From the NCBI GenBank assembly GCA_046727435.1, contig JBKPCR010000109.1, positions 1 through 9,175 on the forward strand: a DNA stretch of 9,175 bases, given 5' to 3'. Each line of letters begins with the position of its first letter. The stretch's first letter is position 1. The DNA is from CAVPRW01 sp046727435 [NCBI: bacterium]. Lineage in GTDB: Bacteria > Tectomicrobia > Entotheonellia > J063. The translations under genes were made by a program, and so were the position numbers. A model generated the notes under the pieces. The model was not told the DNA's origin and did no database searches. It was given only the letters and a program-made list of their open reading frames with translations. Positions 3,092 to 8,897 of the stretch are shown here, in pieces.

Positions 3092-3198
3092 GGGTAGCGC
3101 TTGCGCTACCCCTGCATGGCAAAACCGGCACGTTTTCGCTACCCCTCCGGTAGCGCGTTCGCTACTCCGGAGGATATGATCCGTAGCGATATCGCTAC
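3092..3198. repeat. Cluster of GTAGCG/CGCTAC inverted repeats
   Basis: Seven copies of the hexamer GTAGCG or its complement CGCTAC fall in 107 bp. They form a perfect hairpin GGGTAGCGC-tt-GCGCTACCC (3092-3111), a stem CGCTACC/GGTAGCG (3137-3155), an overlapping stem GTAGCG/CGCTAC (3150-3165), and a perfect 16-bp palindrome GTAGCGATATCGCTAC (3183-3198). The last ends one base before the stop codon of the 85-aa gene. No T-runs follow the stems, so they are not simple terminators. They lie just upstream of the 33-aa/winged-helix genes and are probably an operator array, an RNA processing or attenuation region, or a replication/partition-type site. Confidence 0.7.
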
Positions 3199-3581: not shown

Positions 3582-3601
3582 TGTCAATACATGTATTGAC
3601 A
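3582..3601. promoter_or_regulatory. Operator 2: perfect 20-bp palindrome
   Basis: TGTCAATACATGTATTGACA is a perfect 20-bp palindrome. It shares both arms (TGTCAAT...ATTGACA, 6-bp spacer) with the site at 3933-3952. It lies 14 bp past the 3' end of the 86-aa HTH gene and upstream of the 85-aa winged-helix gene, where binding would block that gene's transcription. Each arm contains a TTGACA -35 consensus, but I find no matching -10 box at a standard distance. Confidence 0.75.
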
Positions 3602-3615
3602 AGTGGTCATCCGTT

Positions 3616-3876
3616 TCACGGCTCAGCCGCCTCTGGACGCGGTTTGCGGGGCCGTCCGCGGGGCGCCGGTTGCGGGTCCGGCGTAGCCCGTAACAGCGCA
3701 TCCACTGGAATGCCCGTCCGGTCATTAATCCGCAACGCCACCTTGCCGCCGATGCGCCGCAGACCGTGCCAGTACATATGCGCTTGCTGGCGGTGGATCT
3801 GGGCCGCCCGCGCGAGCTCGCTGGGGCGGTGAATGCCATAGCGTTTCAAGAGATCCTGCAACATCATCCTCTCCAT
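3616..3876 (-). CDS. Cro/CI-like HTH repressor with AT-hook-like tail
   Basis: This is an 86-aa basic protein. Residues 5-62 fit a Cro/CI-type helix-turn-helix: LQDLLKRYG, then RPSELARAAQ, then HRQQAHMYWHG as recognition helix, then GKVALRINDRTG and IPVDALL. The C-terminal tail contains RGRPRKP (73-79), the core of an AT-hook that binds the minor groove of AT-rich DNA. The ATG at 3876 has a GGAGGG ribosome-binding site at about 10 nt. The gene is flanked by two matching TGTCAAT-N6-ATTGACA palindromes, the upstream one overlapping its own promoter. It therefore likely represses itself, the divergent rightward operon, and the downstream winged-helix gene, like a phage or plasmid control repressor. 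DNA binding is inferred from fold and site arrangement. Confidence 0.8.
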   Translation of the reverse strand: MERMMLQDLLKRYGIHRPSELARAAQIHRQQAHMYWHGLRRIGGKVALRINDRTGIPVDALLRATPDPQPAPRGRPRKPRPEAAEP

Positions 3877-3909: not shown

Positions 3910-3938
3910 ATATTATCGGATATCACCACAAATGTCAA
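3910..3938 (-). promoter_or_regulatory. Leftward promoter of the HTH repressor gene
   Basis: On the minus strand TTGACA (3938-3933, perfect -35) is followed after 17 nt by TAATAT (3915-3910). GATAAT at 15 nt (3917-3912) is an alternative -10. The predicted start is about 25-30 nt before the repressor ATG at 3876. The -35 box lies within the left arm of operator 1, so autorepression is expected. Confidence 0.6.
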
Positions 3939-3952
3939 TCATGGTATTGACA
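3933..3952. promoter_or_regulatory. Operator 1: TGTCAAT-N6-ATTGACA
   Basis: TGTCAATCATGGTATTGACA has perfect 7-bp inverted arms around a 6-bp spacer, matching operator 2 at 3582-3601. It lies between the divergent repressor gene and the rightward small-gene operon. Each arm is the -35 box of one of the two promoters, so one bound dimer could shut both. Confidence 0.75.
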
Positions 3953-4415: not shown

Positions 4416-4664
4416 ATGCCCACCATCGGCACGATACATCGTGATCCCATGAACGGCCAGTATCATCCGGCGCCGCGCGCGGCGTTCAAATGGTGGCATG
4501 GCGAAACGGCAAGCCAGTGCGAATTCTGCGACGATGACGGCGACGATGACGTCTTGATCGGCTTTTACGCCGAAGAGGACGCGGCCTTATGCGAGCGGCA
4601 CGGCGCGGAACAACTCTGCATCATGACGTGTACGGACGCCGCCTGCCGCGGGAGGAAGATGTAA
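4416..4664 (+). CDS. Small Cys-rich zinc-finger-like protein
   Basis: An 82-aa protein starting 14 nt after the previous stop, with an AGGGAGA ribosome-binding site at suitable spacing. It contains C35-x2-C38 (CEFC), a long Asp-rich stretch (DDDGDDD), then C59-x2-H62 (CERH), the ligand pattern of a treble-clef or zinc-ribbon domain. Further cysteines lie at 68, 72 and 77. The N-terminal part (FKWWHGE) is aromatic. Family unknown. Cotranscribed with the basic protein upstream, it fits a set of small accessory proteins under the same operator. Confidence 0.75.
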   Translation: MPTIGTIHRDPMNGQYHPAPRAAFKWWHGETASQCEFCDDDGDDDVLIGFYAEEDAALCERHGAEQLCIMTCTDAACRGRKM

Positions 4665-4682
4665 GCCATGGATGCATGGAAA

Positions 4683-4800
4683 CGCGGCAGCGCCGCGCGT
4701 GTGGAGGAAGTGCCCCGGCAGGGTGCTAGGCACACCCTGTCAGGGCGAGGCAATGCAGGTTTAGCTCACCAGAGCAATCACCCGGCGCATAATATGCGCC
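4683..4800 (+). promoter_or_regulatory. Structured leader with three hairpins
   Basis: Between the genes ending at 4664 and starting at 4814 there are three stems: CGCGGC/GCCGCG (4683-4697, 3-nt loop), CAGGGTG/CACCCTG (4719-4739, 7-nt loop) and GGCGCAT/ATGCGCC (4784-4800, 3-nt loop). The last stands 2 nt before the AAGGAG ribosome-binding site of the 4814 gene. No T-run follows any stem. This looks like a processed or regulatory intercistronic RNA rather than a terminator. Confidence 0.4.
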
Positions 4801-4813
4801 TGAAGGAGCAACA

Positions 4814-5119
4814 ATGTCAATTCGCCACATCCCCTATCCCGACGATTTCGACGTCAACCATGAAGTCGCCAACCTCGAGGAACGCCGCCGGCGCATCTTG
4901 CACATCCTCGACGTGGGCGACGTGCTGGCGCAGATCGATGATCTGATCGCCCGCGAGTCCGACCCCGCCAAACACCCGTGCCACGACCTCGTCGCCTGGC
5001 TGCTGGACCAGCGCGGGTCGCCAGGGAACGGCGCGCACTTCTGGGATGCCTGGAAACGCCTCTGCCTGGATGCCATCGACGCGCTGGTCGACGAGGCCCT
5101 GACCCAGGGGGAGGACTAG
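4814..5119 (+). CDS. Acidic helical hypothetical protein
   Basis: A 101-aa acidic protein, start fixed by AAGGAG 7 nt before the ATG. It is predicted mostly helical: NLEERRRRILHILDVGDVLAQIDDLIA (20-46), HDLVAWLLDQ (57-66) and FWDAWKRLCLDAIDALVDEAL (76-96). There are two isolated cysteines and no metal motif. I do not recognise the family. A 4-nt gap and a GGAGG-containing C-terminal coding end link it to the next gene, so the two are probably cotranslated. The hairpin just upstream of its ribosome-binding site may modulate its translation. Confidence 0.75.
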   Translation: MSIRHIPYPDDFDVNHEVANLEERRRRILHILDVGDVLAQIDDLIARESDPAKHPCHDLVAWLLDQRGSPGNGAHFWDAWKRLCLDAIDALVDEALTQGED

Positions 5120-5123
5120 CGCC

Positions 5124-5459
5124 ATGGCGAAGCCCTGGAAGTCCTCACGCGCCCCGGCCCCCAGCGTGGAGCCGAGCACGATCACGGAATGCGCCCGGCG
5201 CTATCATGCCTGTGCGCTGGCGCTCGCCAAGTCGCTCGGCTTGCCGATGACTGCTGCATTTTTACAGGAGTACCACTCCGCTATTTCATGCGTGTACATT
5301 GAAGCGGGACGGGCCGGGGTGCGGCTCCCGCCAGCCATCCAGCTGCCGCCGCTTCGCGCCATCAACGGCCAGCCACCGGCGCCCGAGCCGGAGGACCTCA
5401 CCGAAGGCGCGCCCGTGGCAAACTGCGCCAAAATTTCCTTTACCTCAGTGAGGAGTTAA
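5124..5459 (+). CDS. N-terminal half of a gene interrupted by a MITE-like insert
   Basis: This 111-aa frame starts at an ATG preceded by GGGGGAGGAC. Residues 1-95 are host-derived: a helical part (TECARRYHACALALAKSLG, TAAFLQEYHSAISCVYIEAGRAG) and a Pro-rich linker ending EDLTEG. From about residue 99 the protein is encoded by a 206-bp insert (NCAKISFTSVRS), which also supplies the stop. Joining 5408 directly to 5626 restores one frame and yields a protein of about 220 aa containing EDLTEGAPVADAPVAST. That matches QELTEGDHVADAPVAST in the second copy of this family near 7230-7275. The product as it stands is a truncated form of unknown function. Confidence 0.7.
   Translation: MAKPWKSSRAPAPSVEPSTITECARRYHACALALAKSLGLPMTAAFLQEYHSAISCVYIEAGRAGVRLPPAIQLPPLRAINGQPPAPEPEDLTEGAPVANCAKISFTSVRS
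5409..5419 (+). repeat. Target-site duplication, left copy
   Basis: GCGCCCGTGGC recurs exactly at 5626-5636, at the other border of the 206-bp insert. Both copies are read in the same codon phase (Ala-Pro-Val-Ala) in the two half genes. Confidence 0.7.
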
Positions 5460-5625
5460 GCTGACTCGCGGGAATGGTGTAACTCCGCAGATGTGAACAC
5501 TTTCCTTCTGAAGCGTTGGGAGCTGGTATCCTGCCTCCGGCCGCCATGGTGGCTCTTCAAGCAAGTACACTGAGGGTGAGCCGAGTTAATTCCCCATATA
5601 CGTAAAGGTAATTATGACGAGGGCT
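5420..5625. mobile_element. 206-bp MITE-like insertion
   Basis: The segment is bordered by 11-bp direct repeats (GCGCCCGTGGC at 5409-5419 and 5626-5636). Comparing its first 26 bases with the reverse complement of its last 26, without gaps, gives 18 matches. The core is AATTTCCTTTAC (left) against AATTACCTTTAC (right). A subterminal inverted pair CCTCAGTG (5443-5450)/CACTGAGG (5568-5575) and a near-palindrome around CCATGG (5546) add structure. There is no transposase frame, so it is non-autonomous. The long target duplication would suit IS4-type transposases, but the family is not identified. It splits the 5124/5614 gene. Confidence 0.7.
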
Positions 5626-6003
5626 GCGCCCGTGGCCGATGCCCCGGTGGCGTCGACGCACACCCAGGCGCCGGTGGCGGCCCAAGGGTCGTATCAGCGT
5701 CACACGTTTGCGGCACGCCTTCTGTCGGCCCCACCGCACGGCCACGCGTCCAACGGTGACCCGCCCCCGCTGACCACGGCCGACCTGCCGACCCGCATCC
5801 CGGCCGGCGTGCAGCTCCCGTGCGCGGACGCGTTGATCGTGGACCTGCGGCCCCCGCAGCTCAGTCTCTTGATCGGCAAAGTGGGCTTGCGGGCGCTGGC
5901 CGATAACAGCCTGGAGCCGCTGCATGTCGCCTTGCTGGCAGAGCGGGCGCATCGCATGAGCAATGGTCAGAAGCCGACACCGGCCGGGGAGGGGGTGGCA
6001 TGA
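5614..6003 (+). CDS. C-terminal half of the interrupted gene, paralogue copy 1
   Basis: This 129-aa frame starts at an ATG lying inside the insert, with an insert-encoded AAAGG ribosome-binding site 6 nt upstream, so its first four residues (MTRA) are acquired. Residues 5-15 (APVADAPVAST) continue the family sequence, followed by a variable His/Pro/Ala linker. The conserved core at 56-114 (ADLPTRIPAGVQLPC...DLRPPQLSLLIGKVGLRALAD...LHVALLAERA) is identical to the copy at 7360-7536 at 53 of 59 positions. The core looks like a compact helical domain of unknown function. The stop overlaps the ATG of the next gene (ATGA). The half gene is probably still translated, judged by the start supplied and the conserved core. 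Confidence 0.7.
   Translation: MTRAAPVADAPVASTHTQAPVAAQGSYQRHTFAARLLSAPPHGHASNGDPPPLTTADLPTRIPAGVQLPCADALIVDLRPPQLSLLIGKVGLRALADNSLEPLHVALLAERAHRMSNGQKPTPAGEGVA
5626..5636 (+). repeat. Target-site duplication, right copy
   Basis: Exact repeat of 5409-5419 (GCGCCCGTGGC), immediately outside the right inverted terminus of the 206-bp insert. Confidence 0.7.
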
Positions 6004-6122
6004 GCGCCCCCATCGGCAGCACCTGGTGGTGTGAGCTGTGCCGGCGCTACGTCGTGCTGGCAGGGCAGCCCAAGCGCCGGCGCTGTCGCCTGTGCCGCCA
6101 GTGGATGAGGCGAACACGGTAG
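6000..6122 (+). CDS. 40-aa zinc-ribbon microprotein
   Basis: The frame starts at an ATG overlapping the stop of the preceding gene (ATGA), behind a G-rich ribosome-binding site (GGGGAGGGGG). The protein has C11-x2-C14 (WWCELCRRY) and C29-x2-C32 (RRRCRLCRQW) separated by 14 residues, a textbook zinc-ribbon ligand set, with a strongly basic C-terminal half. It likely binds nucleic acid or acts as an assembly factor. Coupling to the upstream half gene implies stoichiometric expression. It is too short for family assignment, but the double CxxC pattern and overlap make it convincing. Confidence 0.7.
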   Translation: MSAPIGSTWWCELCRRYVVLAGQPKRRRCRLCRQWMRRTR

Positions 6123-6144
6123 CCTTCGGATCGGTTTTGGGGTA

Positions 6145-6173
6145 GAAGGGAGGTGGAGGACCCCCATCCCTTC
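6145..6173 (+). terminator. Terminator-like hairpin after the small-gene operon
   Basis: GAAGGGAGGTGG (6145-6156) and CCCCATCCCTTC (6162-6173) pair over 12 positions with two mismatches and a 5-nt loop, 22 bp after the stop of the 40-aa gene. No T-run follows, so it may be a Rho-assisted or RNA-stabilising 3' structure rather than a true intrinsic terminator. Confidence 0.4.
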
Positions 6174-6266
6174 GACGGGCAGGGATTATGTCGCATCTGG
6201 TGAGACGGTTGCCAAATCCTTTGGGAGACCGACTTAGCGTTAGACGGCAGTATCTTGCTGACGAGG

Positions 6267-6276
6267 AAGGAGGTGA
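6267..6276 (+). promoter_or_regulatory. Orphan perfect Shine-Dalgarno sequence
   Basis: AAGGAGGTGA matches the anti-Shine-Dalgarno over 10 nt, but no start codon lies within normal range; the nearest in the region is a GTG at 6290, too far. It stands in an A-rich leader 126 bp before the 6402 gene. It could be a remnant of a lost gene or a ribosome standby site. Apart from this and the two hairpins, the 279-bp stretch 6123-6401 shows no supported gene. Confidence 0.35.
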
Positions 6277-6363
6277 GGCGAAAAACAAAGTGCAAAATAG
6301 CAAAGTAACAGGGGGTATGGACGGTCCACCAGCAACCAACTTAGCATCGTCAACGTTATGTTG

Positions 6364-6396
6364 GCCGATGAGCCGACAGCTCATCGGCACAGGAGG
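6364..6396 (+). promoter_or_regulatory. Perfect stem-loop abutting the Shine-Dalgarno of the 6402 gene
   Basis: GCCGATGAGC (6364-6373) and GCTCATCGGC (6379-6388) form a perfect 10-bp stem with a 5-nt loop (CGACA). AGGAGG (6391-6396) follows after 2 nt, and the ATG at 6402 after 5 more. The hairpin leaves the ribosome-binding site just exposed. It probably stabilises the mRNA 5' end or is a protein-binding operator for translation. Confidence 0.5.
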
Positions 6397-6401
6397 TTAT
6401 C

Positions 6402-6920
6402 ATGAAACCCAAGACAACGTATCGACGACACAGAGGGAGCCTCAGCGTGATACTTGTCGCGCTTATCCTGACGTGGGCCGCCGTGCTGGGCTCCGGCAGC
6501 CCTGCCACCGCAGACACGCTAGTGTTCCCGGCCGGAGTAGCGTGTGAATTCGAACTGCATATTGACGTTAGTGGTGGCAACCTGATCATGAGGGAGTTCG
6601 AGGACAAGAACGGCAACACCGTACGCCTGATCACTGCCGGCAAAGGCTTTACACTTGTGTTCACGAATGCCGAAACTGGTGCCACGTTCTCGTTGAAATC
6701 TAATGGGGCGGTAACACGCACAACGATCAACCCCGACGGGTCGCAGACGGTGACTAGCACCGGACACAACGTCCTCATTTTCTTCCCGACCGATGTGCCG
6801 GCGGGGCCCTCGACGACGCTGTACGAGGGCCGTGTCGTCTACACGGTCGACAGCAATCAAGTCTTCACCTTGTTGGAGTTCAGCGGACAGACGACCGACA
6901 TCTGTGCCATCTTGTCCTAA
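6402..6920 (+). CDS. Secreted beta-rich protein with two cysteines
   Basis: This 172-aa protein has an N-terminal signal peptide: basic residues 1-12, a hydrophobic stretch 15-30, and likely cleavage after SPATA (residue 37). The mature part is Gly/Thr/Asn-rich and predicted beta-stranded (FPAGVACEFELHIDVSGGN, LVFTNAETGATFSLKSNG, HNVLIFFPTDVPAGPSTTLYEGRVVYTV). It has two cysteines, C48 and C168, which could form a disulfide linking the ends of the domain. It resembles small exported hypothetical proteins common in Actinobacteria and related groups, as I recall the family; no function is established. The start is fixed by AGGAGG at 5 nt. A perfect stem-loop precedes the ribosome-binding site, implying post-transcriptional control. 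It is flanked by unrelated genes and appears to be a single-gene unit. Confidence 0.8.
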   Translation: MKPKTTYRRHRGSLSVILVALILTWAAVLGSGSPATADTLVFPAGVACEFELHIDVSGGNLIMREFEDKNGNTVRLITAGKGFTLVFTNAETGATFSLKSNGAVTRTTINPDGSQTVTSTGHNVLIFFPTDVPAGPSTTLYEGRVVYTVDSNQVFTLLEFSGQTTDICAILS

Positions 6921-7233
6921 TGATCTCGGCCCGCTCACGAGAGGAAGCGTGCCCTCTTGCCCGCGCTGTCACATTGGGGATGGCAGTGGAAGACTACCGG
7001 CGCAGTGATTTGAGGCCGTGCCCAGCTGGCAAAGAATGTGGTCCTGGCGAGATGGATTGCAGTCCCTCGCGGCTGATTGCTGTCTCAGTCGCCACGAATC
7101 CTGTCCTGGAGGTGTCGCGAGATGCAGTCAATGCGGTCCGGCACATGCCTGGATCGCTGTCCCGGCCCATTTGAATTGCAGGCCGTTACACCTAGCGGCG
7201 CTGGGCATTGGCACGCAGTTCGTGGGCCAGGAG
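6921..7233 (+). other. Gap between secreted protein and paralogue copy 2
   Basis: About 310 bp with no well-supported gene. A frame from the ATG at 6920 overlaps the preceding stop (TAATG) but lacks a ribosome-binding site and has mixed codon use. The frame of copy 2 stays open back to a GTG at 7018 and encodes CxxC-like residues (RCSQCG). Copy 2 could therefore start within this stretch, but similarity to the first half gene (5124-5408) is not visible beyond the ELTEG motif. The stretch may be decayed 5' sequence of the duplicated gene. Confidence 0.4.
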
Positions 7234-7572
7234 TTGACCGAAGGCGATCACGTCGCGGATGCGCCGGTCGCATCGACCAACGGACATGGTGAGCCATCAA
7301 CGGTCGACCATCAGCCTTTGAACGGCGACACGCCCCCACTCAGCGGGATCGCCACCATGGCCGACCTGCCGACCAGCATCCCAGCGGGTTTGCAGTTGCC
7401 GTGTGCGGAGGCGTTGATCGTCGACCTCCGGCCCCCGCAGTTGAGTCTGTTGATCGGCAAGGTGGGCTTGCGGGCGCTGGCGGACAAGACCCTGGAGCCG
7501 CTGCATGTCGCGCTCTTGGCCGAGCGGGCGCGGCGGTTTGCGCAGGGCCAAAAGGCCCCCAGGGAGGGCTGA
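7234..7572 (+). CDS. Paralogue copy 2 of the interrupted gene (5'-truncated or rearranged)
   Basis: From the TTG at 7234 the protein reads LTEGDHVADAPVAST, followed by a variable linker. The conserved core (7360-7536, ADLPTSIPAGLQLPC...LRPPQLSLLIGKVGLRALAD...LHVALLAERA) differs from copy 1 at only 6 of 59 positions. Many codons differ synonymously between the copies, suggesting both were kept by selection. The start is uncertain: the frame is open to 7018, AGGAG lies too close to the TTG, and an internal ATG at 7357 begins just before the core. Homology to the rejoined copy 1 begins at least one residue before the TTG, so the true start may be upstream. Function unknown. The next gene follows after 3 nt. 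Confidence 0.6.
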   Translation: MTEGDHVADAPVASTNGHGEPSTVDHQPLNGDTPPLSGIATMADLPTSIPAGLQLPCAEALIVDLRPPQLSLLIGKVGLRALADKTLEPLHVALLAERARRFAQGQKAPREG

Positions 7573-7907: not shown

Positions 7908-8897
7908 ATGATGCGCCGTACCATCGGGTTTCTCGTCACTCTCGCCCTCAGCCTCCTCGTGGCGCCGCTCGCCGCCAGTGCGCAGCCACGCGCCAAGCCG
8001 GCGCGGATCGCCTTTCTGGAGTTGGGCGCTGCGCCTCCGGCCTCGGCACCCCCACCCGTGGTGGCGGTGTTCCAGCAGCGACTGCGCGAGCTGGGGTGGA
8101 TCGAGGGCCAGGACCTCACCATTGAATGGCGCTGGGCCGAGGGCAGTCTCGAACGCTTTGCCACCCTGGTCGAGGAGATGGTCCGTCTCCCGGTGGAGGT
8201 CCTGGTGGTCCCGAATCAGACCACCGCCGGCGTGGCGCAGAAAGCGACCACGACGATTCCCATCGTCATGGTGGCAGGCGGCGACATACGGCCGACAATC
8301 TCCAGCCTCGCGCAGCCCGGCGGGAACATCACGGGGATGGCCGGCCTCAACCCGGAGTTGTCGTCGAAACGGCTGGAACTGATCACACGCACGATCCCGG
8401 GGCTCACCCGCGTGGCGGTGCTCCGGGGGCTCGGCCGCCAAACCCTGGCGTTACAGGCGATGGAGGTCGCGGCCCAGGCGTTGGGGGTGCAGCTGCAGCT
8501 CCTGGAGGCGCGAGACTCTACCACGATCGACCAGGCAGTTGCCGCGGCGATCCACCAGGGGGCTGGCGCCCTGGTAGTGTTTTCGGACGGAGGGAACTTC
8601 TTTCCCCATCGCGCCCATCTCGCCAAGCTGGCCCTCACCCACCGGCTGCCGTCGATCTTCAATACGCGTGCGTTTGTCGAGGCGGGTGGGCTCATGAGCT
8701 ATGGGATAAGTCCTGCCGAGCGGGGGCAACGCGCCGCCGTGTACGTGGACAAACTCCTCAACGGGGCCAAGCCGGGAGACCTCCCCATCGAGCAGCCCAC
8801 GACCTTTGAGTTCGTCATCAACCTCAAGACCGCCCAGGCCTTGGGCCTCACGATCCCGCCGACGCTCCTCTTCCAGGCCGACGAGATCATCCGCTGA
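7908..8897 (+). CDS. ABC transporter substrate-binding protein (PF04392 type)
   Basis: A 329-aa periplasmic protein, close to the usual length of the family. The N-terminal signal peptide (MMRRTIGFLVTLALSLLVAP) has an ASA|QP cleavage site at about residue 25. The mature protein shows the type-I periplasmic-binding two-lobe pattern: RIAFLELG strand, FQQRLRELGWIEGQDLTIEWRWAEG, LPVEVLVVPNQTTAGVAQKATTTIPIVMV, GGNITGMAGLNPELSSKRLELI, then the second lobe ending FVINLKTAQALGLTIPPTLL, a hallmark C-terminus of the family. It would capture a small ligand for an ABC importer; the ligand is unknown. No permease or ATPase gene is in the window, and orphan members are common in this family. GGAGGA precedes the ATG by 7 nt. 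The frame is open well upstream of 7908, but that part is antisense or shadow of the preceding genes. Confidence 0.93.
   Translation: MMRRTIGFLVTLALSLLVAPLAASAQPRAKPARIAFLELGAAPPASAPPPVVAVFQQRLRELGWIEGQDLTIEWRWAEGSLERFATLVEEMVRLPVEVLVVPNQTTAGVAQKATTTIPIVMVAGGDIRPTISSLAQPGGNITGMAGLNPELSSKRLELITRTIPGLTRVAVLRGLGRQTLALQAMEVAAQALGVQLQLLEARDSTTIDQAVAAAIHQGAGALVVFSDGGNFFPHRAHLAKLALTHRLPSIFNTRAFVEAGGLMSYGISPAERGQRAAVYVDKLLNGAKPGDLPIEQPTTFEFVINLKTAQALGLTIPPTLLFQADEIIR

Follow-up and report, generated by a model that had tools for sequence, protein, structure and literature searches.

A MITE-like insertion that probably broke one gene of unknown function, with an uninterrupted partial paralogue in the same stretch of bacterial DNA

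Analysis of the window (the whole stretch of DNA under study, 9,175 nucleotides) reveals two consecutive open frames on the forward strand, the first ending and the second beginning inside a 206-bp segment that is flanked by an 11-bp direct repeat. As they stand, these frames code for 111 amino acids (99 native and 12 insert-coded) and 129 amino acids, respectively, and a partial paralogue lies further downstream on the same strand. The coordinates of all these features are collected in Table 1. Comparison of the first half with the Pfam, PHROG and NCBIfam collections yielded no family at E 0.1, and a structure prediction for the second half, calculated from a two-row alignment, is too poor for use (mean pLDDT of 47.7). 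When the first half was compared by tblastn with the remainder of the window, with the composition correction switched off, a single hit (E 0.017, 32% identity) fell on the beginning of the lipoprotein gene near 7908 and was rejected as compositional; otherwise no match below E 0.3 was obtained in this search.

Table 1. Coordinates of the split gene, the insert and the paralogue within the window
Feature	Coordinates	Strand	Remarks
First part of split gene	5124..5419	+	Open frame; 99 native codons, the last one completed by the insert; strong Shine-Dalgarno site of its own
Target duplication, left copy	5409..5419	+	11 bp, GCGCCCGTGGC; exact repeat
MITE-like insert	5420..5625	.	206 bp; GC 50.5%; stop codons in six of six frames
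Left terminal inverted repeat region	5420..5459	+	Agrees with the right end at 27 of 40 positions
TAA inside the insert	5457..5459	+	Closes the first half, to which the insert adds 12 residues
Right terminal inverted repeat region	5586..5625	-	Pairs with the left end
AAAGG (5604-5608) and ATG (5614-5616)	5604..5616	+	Located at the insert's right end; the Shine-Dalgarno site is weak
Second half	5614..6003	+	Open frame; begins with insert-encoded MTRA and continues in native sequence, which contains the core common to it and the paralogue
Target duplication, right copy	5626..5636	+	11 bp, GCGCCCGTGGC; exact repeat
Partial paralogue	7229..7572	+	DNA alignment; crosses the insertion point without a gap (empty site)

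The two copies of GCGCCCGTGGC are perfectly identical, and the identity breaks off at both edges. By itself, an 11-bp direct repeat is not significant: a pair of this length, 50–1000 bp apart, occurs in 191 of 200 shuffled windows, and the real window also contains further 11-bp direct-repeat pairs. Since chance matches can lengthen duplications, the actual target duplication may comprise fewer than 11 bp. The enclosed segment is much poorer in G+C than its flanks (69.1% and 71.7%), contains no transposase gene and is closed by stops in every frame; the net gain from the insertion amounts to 217 bp, so that the frame is shifted. A simple scan of the insert revealed neither a sigma-70-like promoter nor a terminator, the sole one of each that was found lying outside it, and at E 0.1 the rest of the window contains no stretch similar to it. 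We also considered that the insert might be a structured RNA. This reading was dropped, since the Rfam families gave no match across the window at the gathering score and since the stability of the fold is near that expected by chance (z of −0.02 for the plus strand and −1.65 for the minus strand, for which 9 of 200 shuffles fold at least as stably).

Read as inverted repeats, the two ends of the insert agree at 18 of 26 positions, at 27 of 40 and at 32 of 50, and none of 5000 dinucleotide-preserving shuffles of the insert reaches any of these counts (maxima of 16, 21 and 25, respectively); the count of 13 over 20 positions is reached by a single shuffle out of 5000. When the ends were slid over 49 offsets, neither the 26- nor the 40-position count was reached in 1000 shuffles. 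A scan of inverted-repeat centres, with paired bases 100–260 bp apart and covering 2594 centres in the region 5000–6400, returned 5426–5459 with 5586–5619 as the best ungapped inverted repeat, and the centre of this repeat is the exact centre of the segment bounded by the duplication. The 206-bp segment, its 11-bp duplication and the 18 matching positions out of 26, all of them proposed in a previous sequence-only reading of this DNA, are thus confirmed. With 68–69% matching positions the ends are imperfect, a value that is low for a recently mobilised element and suggests a diverged one.

When the flanks are fused and a single copy of the repeat is retained, the resulting 663 nucleotides form one open frame of 220 amino acids, which bears out the earlier claim that removal of the insert restores one frame. 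The paralogue aligns with the split gene without any gap across the junction, the two being identical at 14 of the 17 positions that precede the duplication, at 7 of its own 11 and at 18 of the 24 that follow it. The left 17-mer finds no other match of at least 13 of 17 among the 18318 positions of the window on both strands, and the insert's own ends agree with the paralogue at just 5 of 17 and 5 of 24 positions. Further to the left of the 17-mer the match is only 4 of 12; upstream of residue 90 no homology between the paralogue and the first half can be recognised, and homology starts abruptly at 7229. This in-window paralogue is the single witness of the empty site. Between the two cores, 6, 2 and 17 differences fall on codon positions 1, 2 and 3, respectively, and 59 codons contain 16 synonymous versus 6 non-synonymous codon differences. 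Mostly third-position, synonymous differences imply that the second part was a constrained coding sequence at some time. As to the motif VADAPVAST, which the joined protein was thought to regain, we found no evidence for such a gain: the second half carries this motif even without joining, its beginning being encoded by the duplicated repeat, and joining the flanks contributes the stretch LTEG on the left of the motif. Since the paralogue likewise lacks a recognisable counterpart of the first part upstream of residue 90, the C-terminal core may be capable of existing by itself. Taken together, the duplication, the inverted ends, the 220-residue joined frame and the gap-free paralogue support an insertion into one ancestral frame, and the strength of the case lies in the agreement between repeat, inverted ends and empty site.

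With respect to the definition of prokaryotic MITEs (PMC3852290), the insert is short and without transposase, has terminal inverted repeats and is bordered by a target duplication at an empty site. A point of comparison is MITEAba12, an Acinetobacter MITE with ISAba12 as its proposed parent, 111–114 bp in length (mostly 113 bp), with 16-bp ends, 9-bp duplications and 90 copies, and with stops in six frames and start codons near its ends that possibly created MQQS starts in three cases (PMC6382973). The insert shares with MITEAba12 its short, non-autonomous build, the terminal inverted repeats, the target duplication, the six-frame stops, the location within a gene and a start codon near the element end that can be fused to a neighbouring coding sequence. 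In contrast to MITEAba12, it is 206 bp long, with a duplication of up to 11 bp, and neither a further copy nor a partner element was found in the collections searched. The ends of related insertion sequences tabulated in that paper begin with GGCTTTGTTGC, from which the insert ends AAACTGCGCC and AGCCCTCGTC differ, a comparison that concerns these relatives and not the exact ends of MITEAba12 itself. Gene-disrupting MITEs, and MITEs predicted to provide a neighbouring gene with a start codon, are already described. Rickettsia palindromic elements are mobile units of about 150 bp, many of which lie inside protein genes (PMC10969869, PMC2229807); there, the frame is kept and a peptide is added, whereas the 217-bp net gain of the present insert breaks the frame and its stops occupy all six frames. 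The enterobacterial RU are small MITE-like mobile sequences that occur within genes and are fused to open frames (Delihas 2007, PMC2759123). RU carries open frames that are maintained in the fusions, whereas the insert would contribute four codons on its right side and twelve on its left. Disruption of a gene by such a small element is an event of an ordinary, known kind.

Copies of the insert and relatives of the split gene were sought in several sequence collections, and the negative results reported here come from searches run without a positive control. The insert yielded no match in the plasmid, phage and E. coli genome collections, and its exact end patterns were not found in viral contigs. 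Among 94 genomes from the phylum of a Rokuibacteriota MAG, 52 matched the insert at E≤1; all of these matches are short (best E 0.008), and many of them map to the insert's GC-rich central part. Eight of ten fetched loci were inspected and none of the eight is a copy; all lie within open frames of more than 150 codons, which is weak evidence of coding in such GC-rich DNA. A degenerate pattern of the inverted ends had no match in 95 genomes of the same phylum and three among 395 genomes of another phylum, with none for the reversed-pattern control. Two of these three correspond to the same site in 94%-identical loci, inside a long frame and with no inverted partner at up to 8 mismatches; the third, also in a long frame, has an opposite-orientation match with 7 mismatches 300 bp away. 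All three were judged to be due to chance. Concerning the split gene, its alignment with the paralogue was used to scan genome contigs (185 pattern stretches, no relatives), and viral contigs gave 191 stretches without relatives, further runs adding three stretches without relatives and none. Plasmids and phages gave no match. The second-half protein had no match in 95 whole genomes of the phylum of the Rokuibacteriota MAG, in 395 genomes of the phylum of genome G002 or in 369 genomes of the class of genome G003, and a single match at E 0.38 in a search of four genomes was taken as chance.

Two expectations of the sequence-only reading, further copies of the 206-bp segment with different 11-bp flanks and an uninterrupted homologue of about 220 residues, were therefore not realised in the collections searched, the in-window paralogue being the only homologue found. 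The designation as MITE-like holds as regards the build of the insert (short, with terminal inverted repeats and a target duplication, and without transposase), but no second copy accompanies it in these searches. Neither of the outcomes regarded beforehand as contradicting an insertion was encountered, namely homologues with a natural end near residue 95 along with others starting at MTRA in the absence of an insert, or the lack of any other copy of the segment combined with homologues carrying it as coding sequence; the paralogue without a first part leaves room for a lone C-terminal part.

It was also suggested that the insertion made two working genes out of one, the stop in the insert ending the first and its AAAGG and ATG starting the second on one mRNA. 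We consider this distinctly improbable, although several features speak for it: both halves are open, ATG 5614 is the first in-frame start of the second half after an in-frame TAA at 5587, AAAGG lies 5 nt ahead of it, and the core common with the paralogue falls wholly within the second half. In addition, MITEAba12 can reportedly provide three neighbouring genes with MQQS starts (PMC6382973). The stop, AAAGG and ATG supplied by the insert are indeed all present, but they do not amount to a good ribosome-binding site: the anti-Shine-Dalgarno pairing at ATG 5614 is worth −3.9 kcal/mol, which 41% of the 284 ATGs in the window equal or beat, versus −11.3 kcal/mol for the duplex at the start of the first half. 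We tabulated 13 further start rows (two belonging to one gene and one being that of the first half; 6001, 3460 minus and 2920 minus were left out since their coordinates lie off a start codon), of which 12 are stronger, nine of them at −8.0 to −11.6 kcal/mol, and only that at 1039 on the minus strand is weaker (−2.7 kcal/mol). Moreover, the first stop and ATG 5614 are 154 nt apart, a gap that exceeds the range of ordinary translational coupling, and the insert brings no sigma-70-like promoter that the simple scan could find. The weak start signal supports a disruption rather than the creation of a second gene, and the case for two cotranslated genes from one is weak. A weakly made C-terminal protein is possible; that the MITE fissioned the gene into two expressed and retained genes, with the C-terminal core freed by start signals of a transposon end, appears very improbable.

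Two further explanations concern the nature of the insert itself. Its imperfect inverted ends, together with the failure to find a second copy or a partner element with the same ends in the collections searched, would fit a degraded, single-copy remnant of a larger insertion sequence that arose by internal deletion and stands outside any amplified MITE family. We hold this to be unlikely, as the perfect duplication and the two open halves fit a young insertion of a short element. Alternatively, no insertion took place at all, and two natural genes are separated by an AT-richer intergenic spacer with coincidental repeats. In favour of this, the C-terminal part may occur alone, as the paralogue has no recognisable first half upstream of residue 90; moreover, 11-bp direct repeats are frequent by chance, and VADAPVAST already lies within the second half. 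Yet the inverted ends surpass all 5000 shuffles and are centred on the duplicated segment, and the left flank resembles the paralogue at the expected place and nowhere else among the window positions, which makes a mere coincidence extremely improbable.

The locus is thus best explained by a MITE-like non-autonomous transposon that probably inserted into, and thereby broke, one gene of unknown function. In such an event, a transposase encoded elsewhere, probably of the DDE type, would have mobilised the element in trans; the duplication implies a staggered cut by this enzyme, the repair of which would have duplicated up to 11 bp and left the 206-bp insert with its imperfect inverted ends in the gene. 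The shifted frame and the stops in every frame break the gene into the first part and the second frame described above; of the second part, little or no product is probably formed. The perfect duplication and the intact frames suggest a fairly young event, after the split of the two paralogues. If this is a mere disruption, it represents one more small transposon-like insertion, with ends unmatched in the collections searched. If, on the other hand, the gene was fissioned, the paralogue without a recognisable first part would show the C-terminal core working alone, and expression of the second half would make the locus a compact natural case in which the end of a transposon has converted a single gene into two.

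Several other features of the window were noted. The segment 6125–7228, between the split gene and the paralogue, has a G+C content of 57.6% versus 62.7% for the window, and an open frame within it (6402–6920) looks secreted when judged by eye. On the other side of the split gene, region 4416–5119 contains small genes with strong Shine-Dalgarno sites; the protein encoded by 4814–5119 matches nothing in Pfam, NCBIfam, PHROGs, plasmids or viral contigs, and the region looks like an uncharted mobile or accessory one. Searches with other proteins of the window against viral contigs, plasmids and 95 genomes found nothing. The nearby lipoprotein encoded by 7908–8897 is an ABC-type substrate-binding protein (PF04392). 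In the phylum of the Rokuibacteriota MAG, 49 of 94 genomes contain matches to it at E≤1e-60, and single genomes have as many as 23 among the candidates scored. Identity to the lipoprotein is 50–53% in the Rokuibacteriota phylum; in a separate search, in which identity was measured differently, 12 proteobacterial loci reach 36–47% and one Rokuibacteriota locus 38%, values which hint at the lineage without fixing it. Between two minus-strand frames, about 105 bp (3094–3198) contain three GTAGCG and four CGCTAC hexamers as inverted repeats, possibly an iteron-like array or a hairpin stack. Finally, a perfect 20-bp palindrome, TGTCAATACATGTATTGACA, and its near-copy TGTCAATCATGGTATTGACA, at 3582–3601 and 3933–3952, flank a small Cro/C1-like helix-turn-helix gene on the minus strand (3616–3876; PF13443 below cut-off), and are probable operators of an autoregulated repressor.
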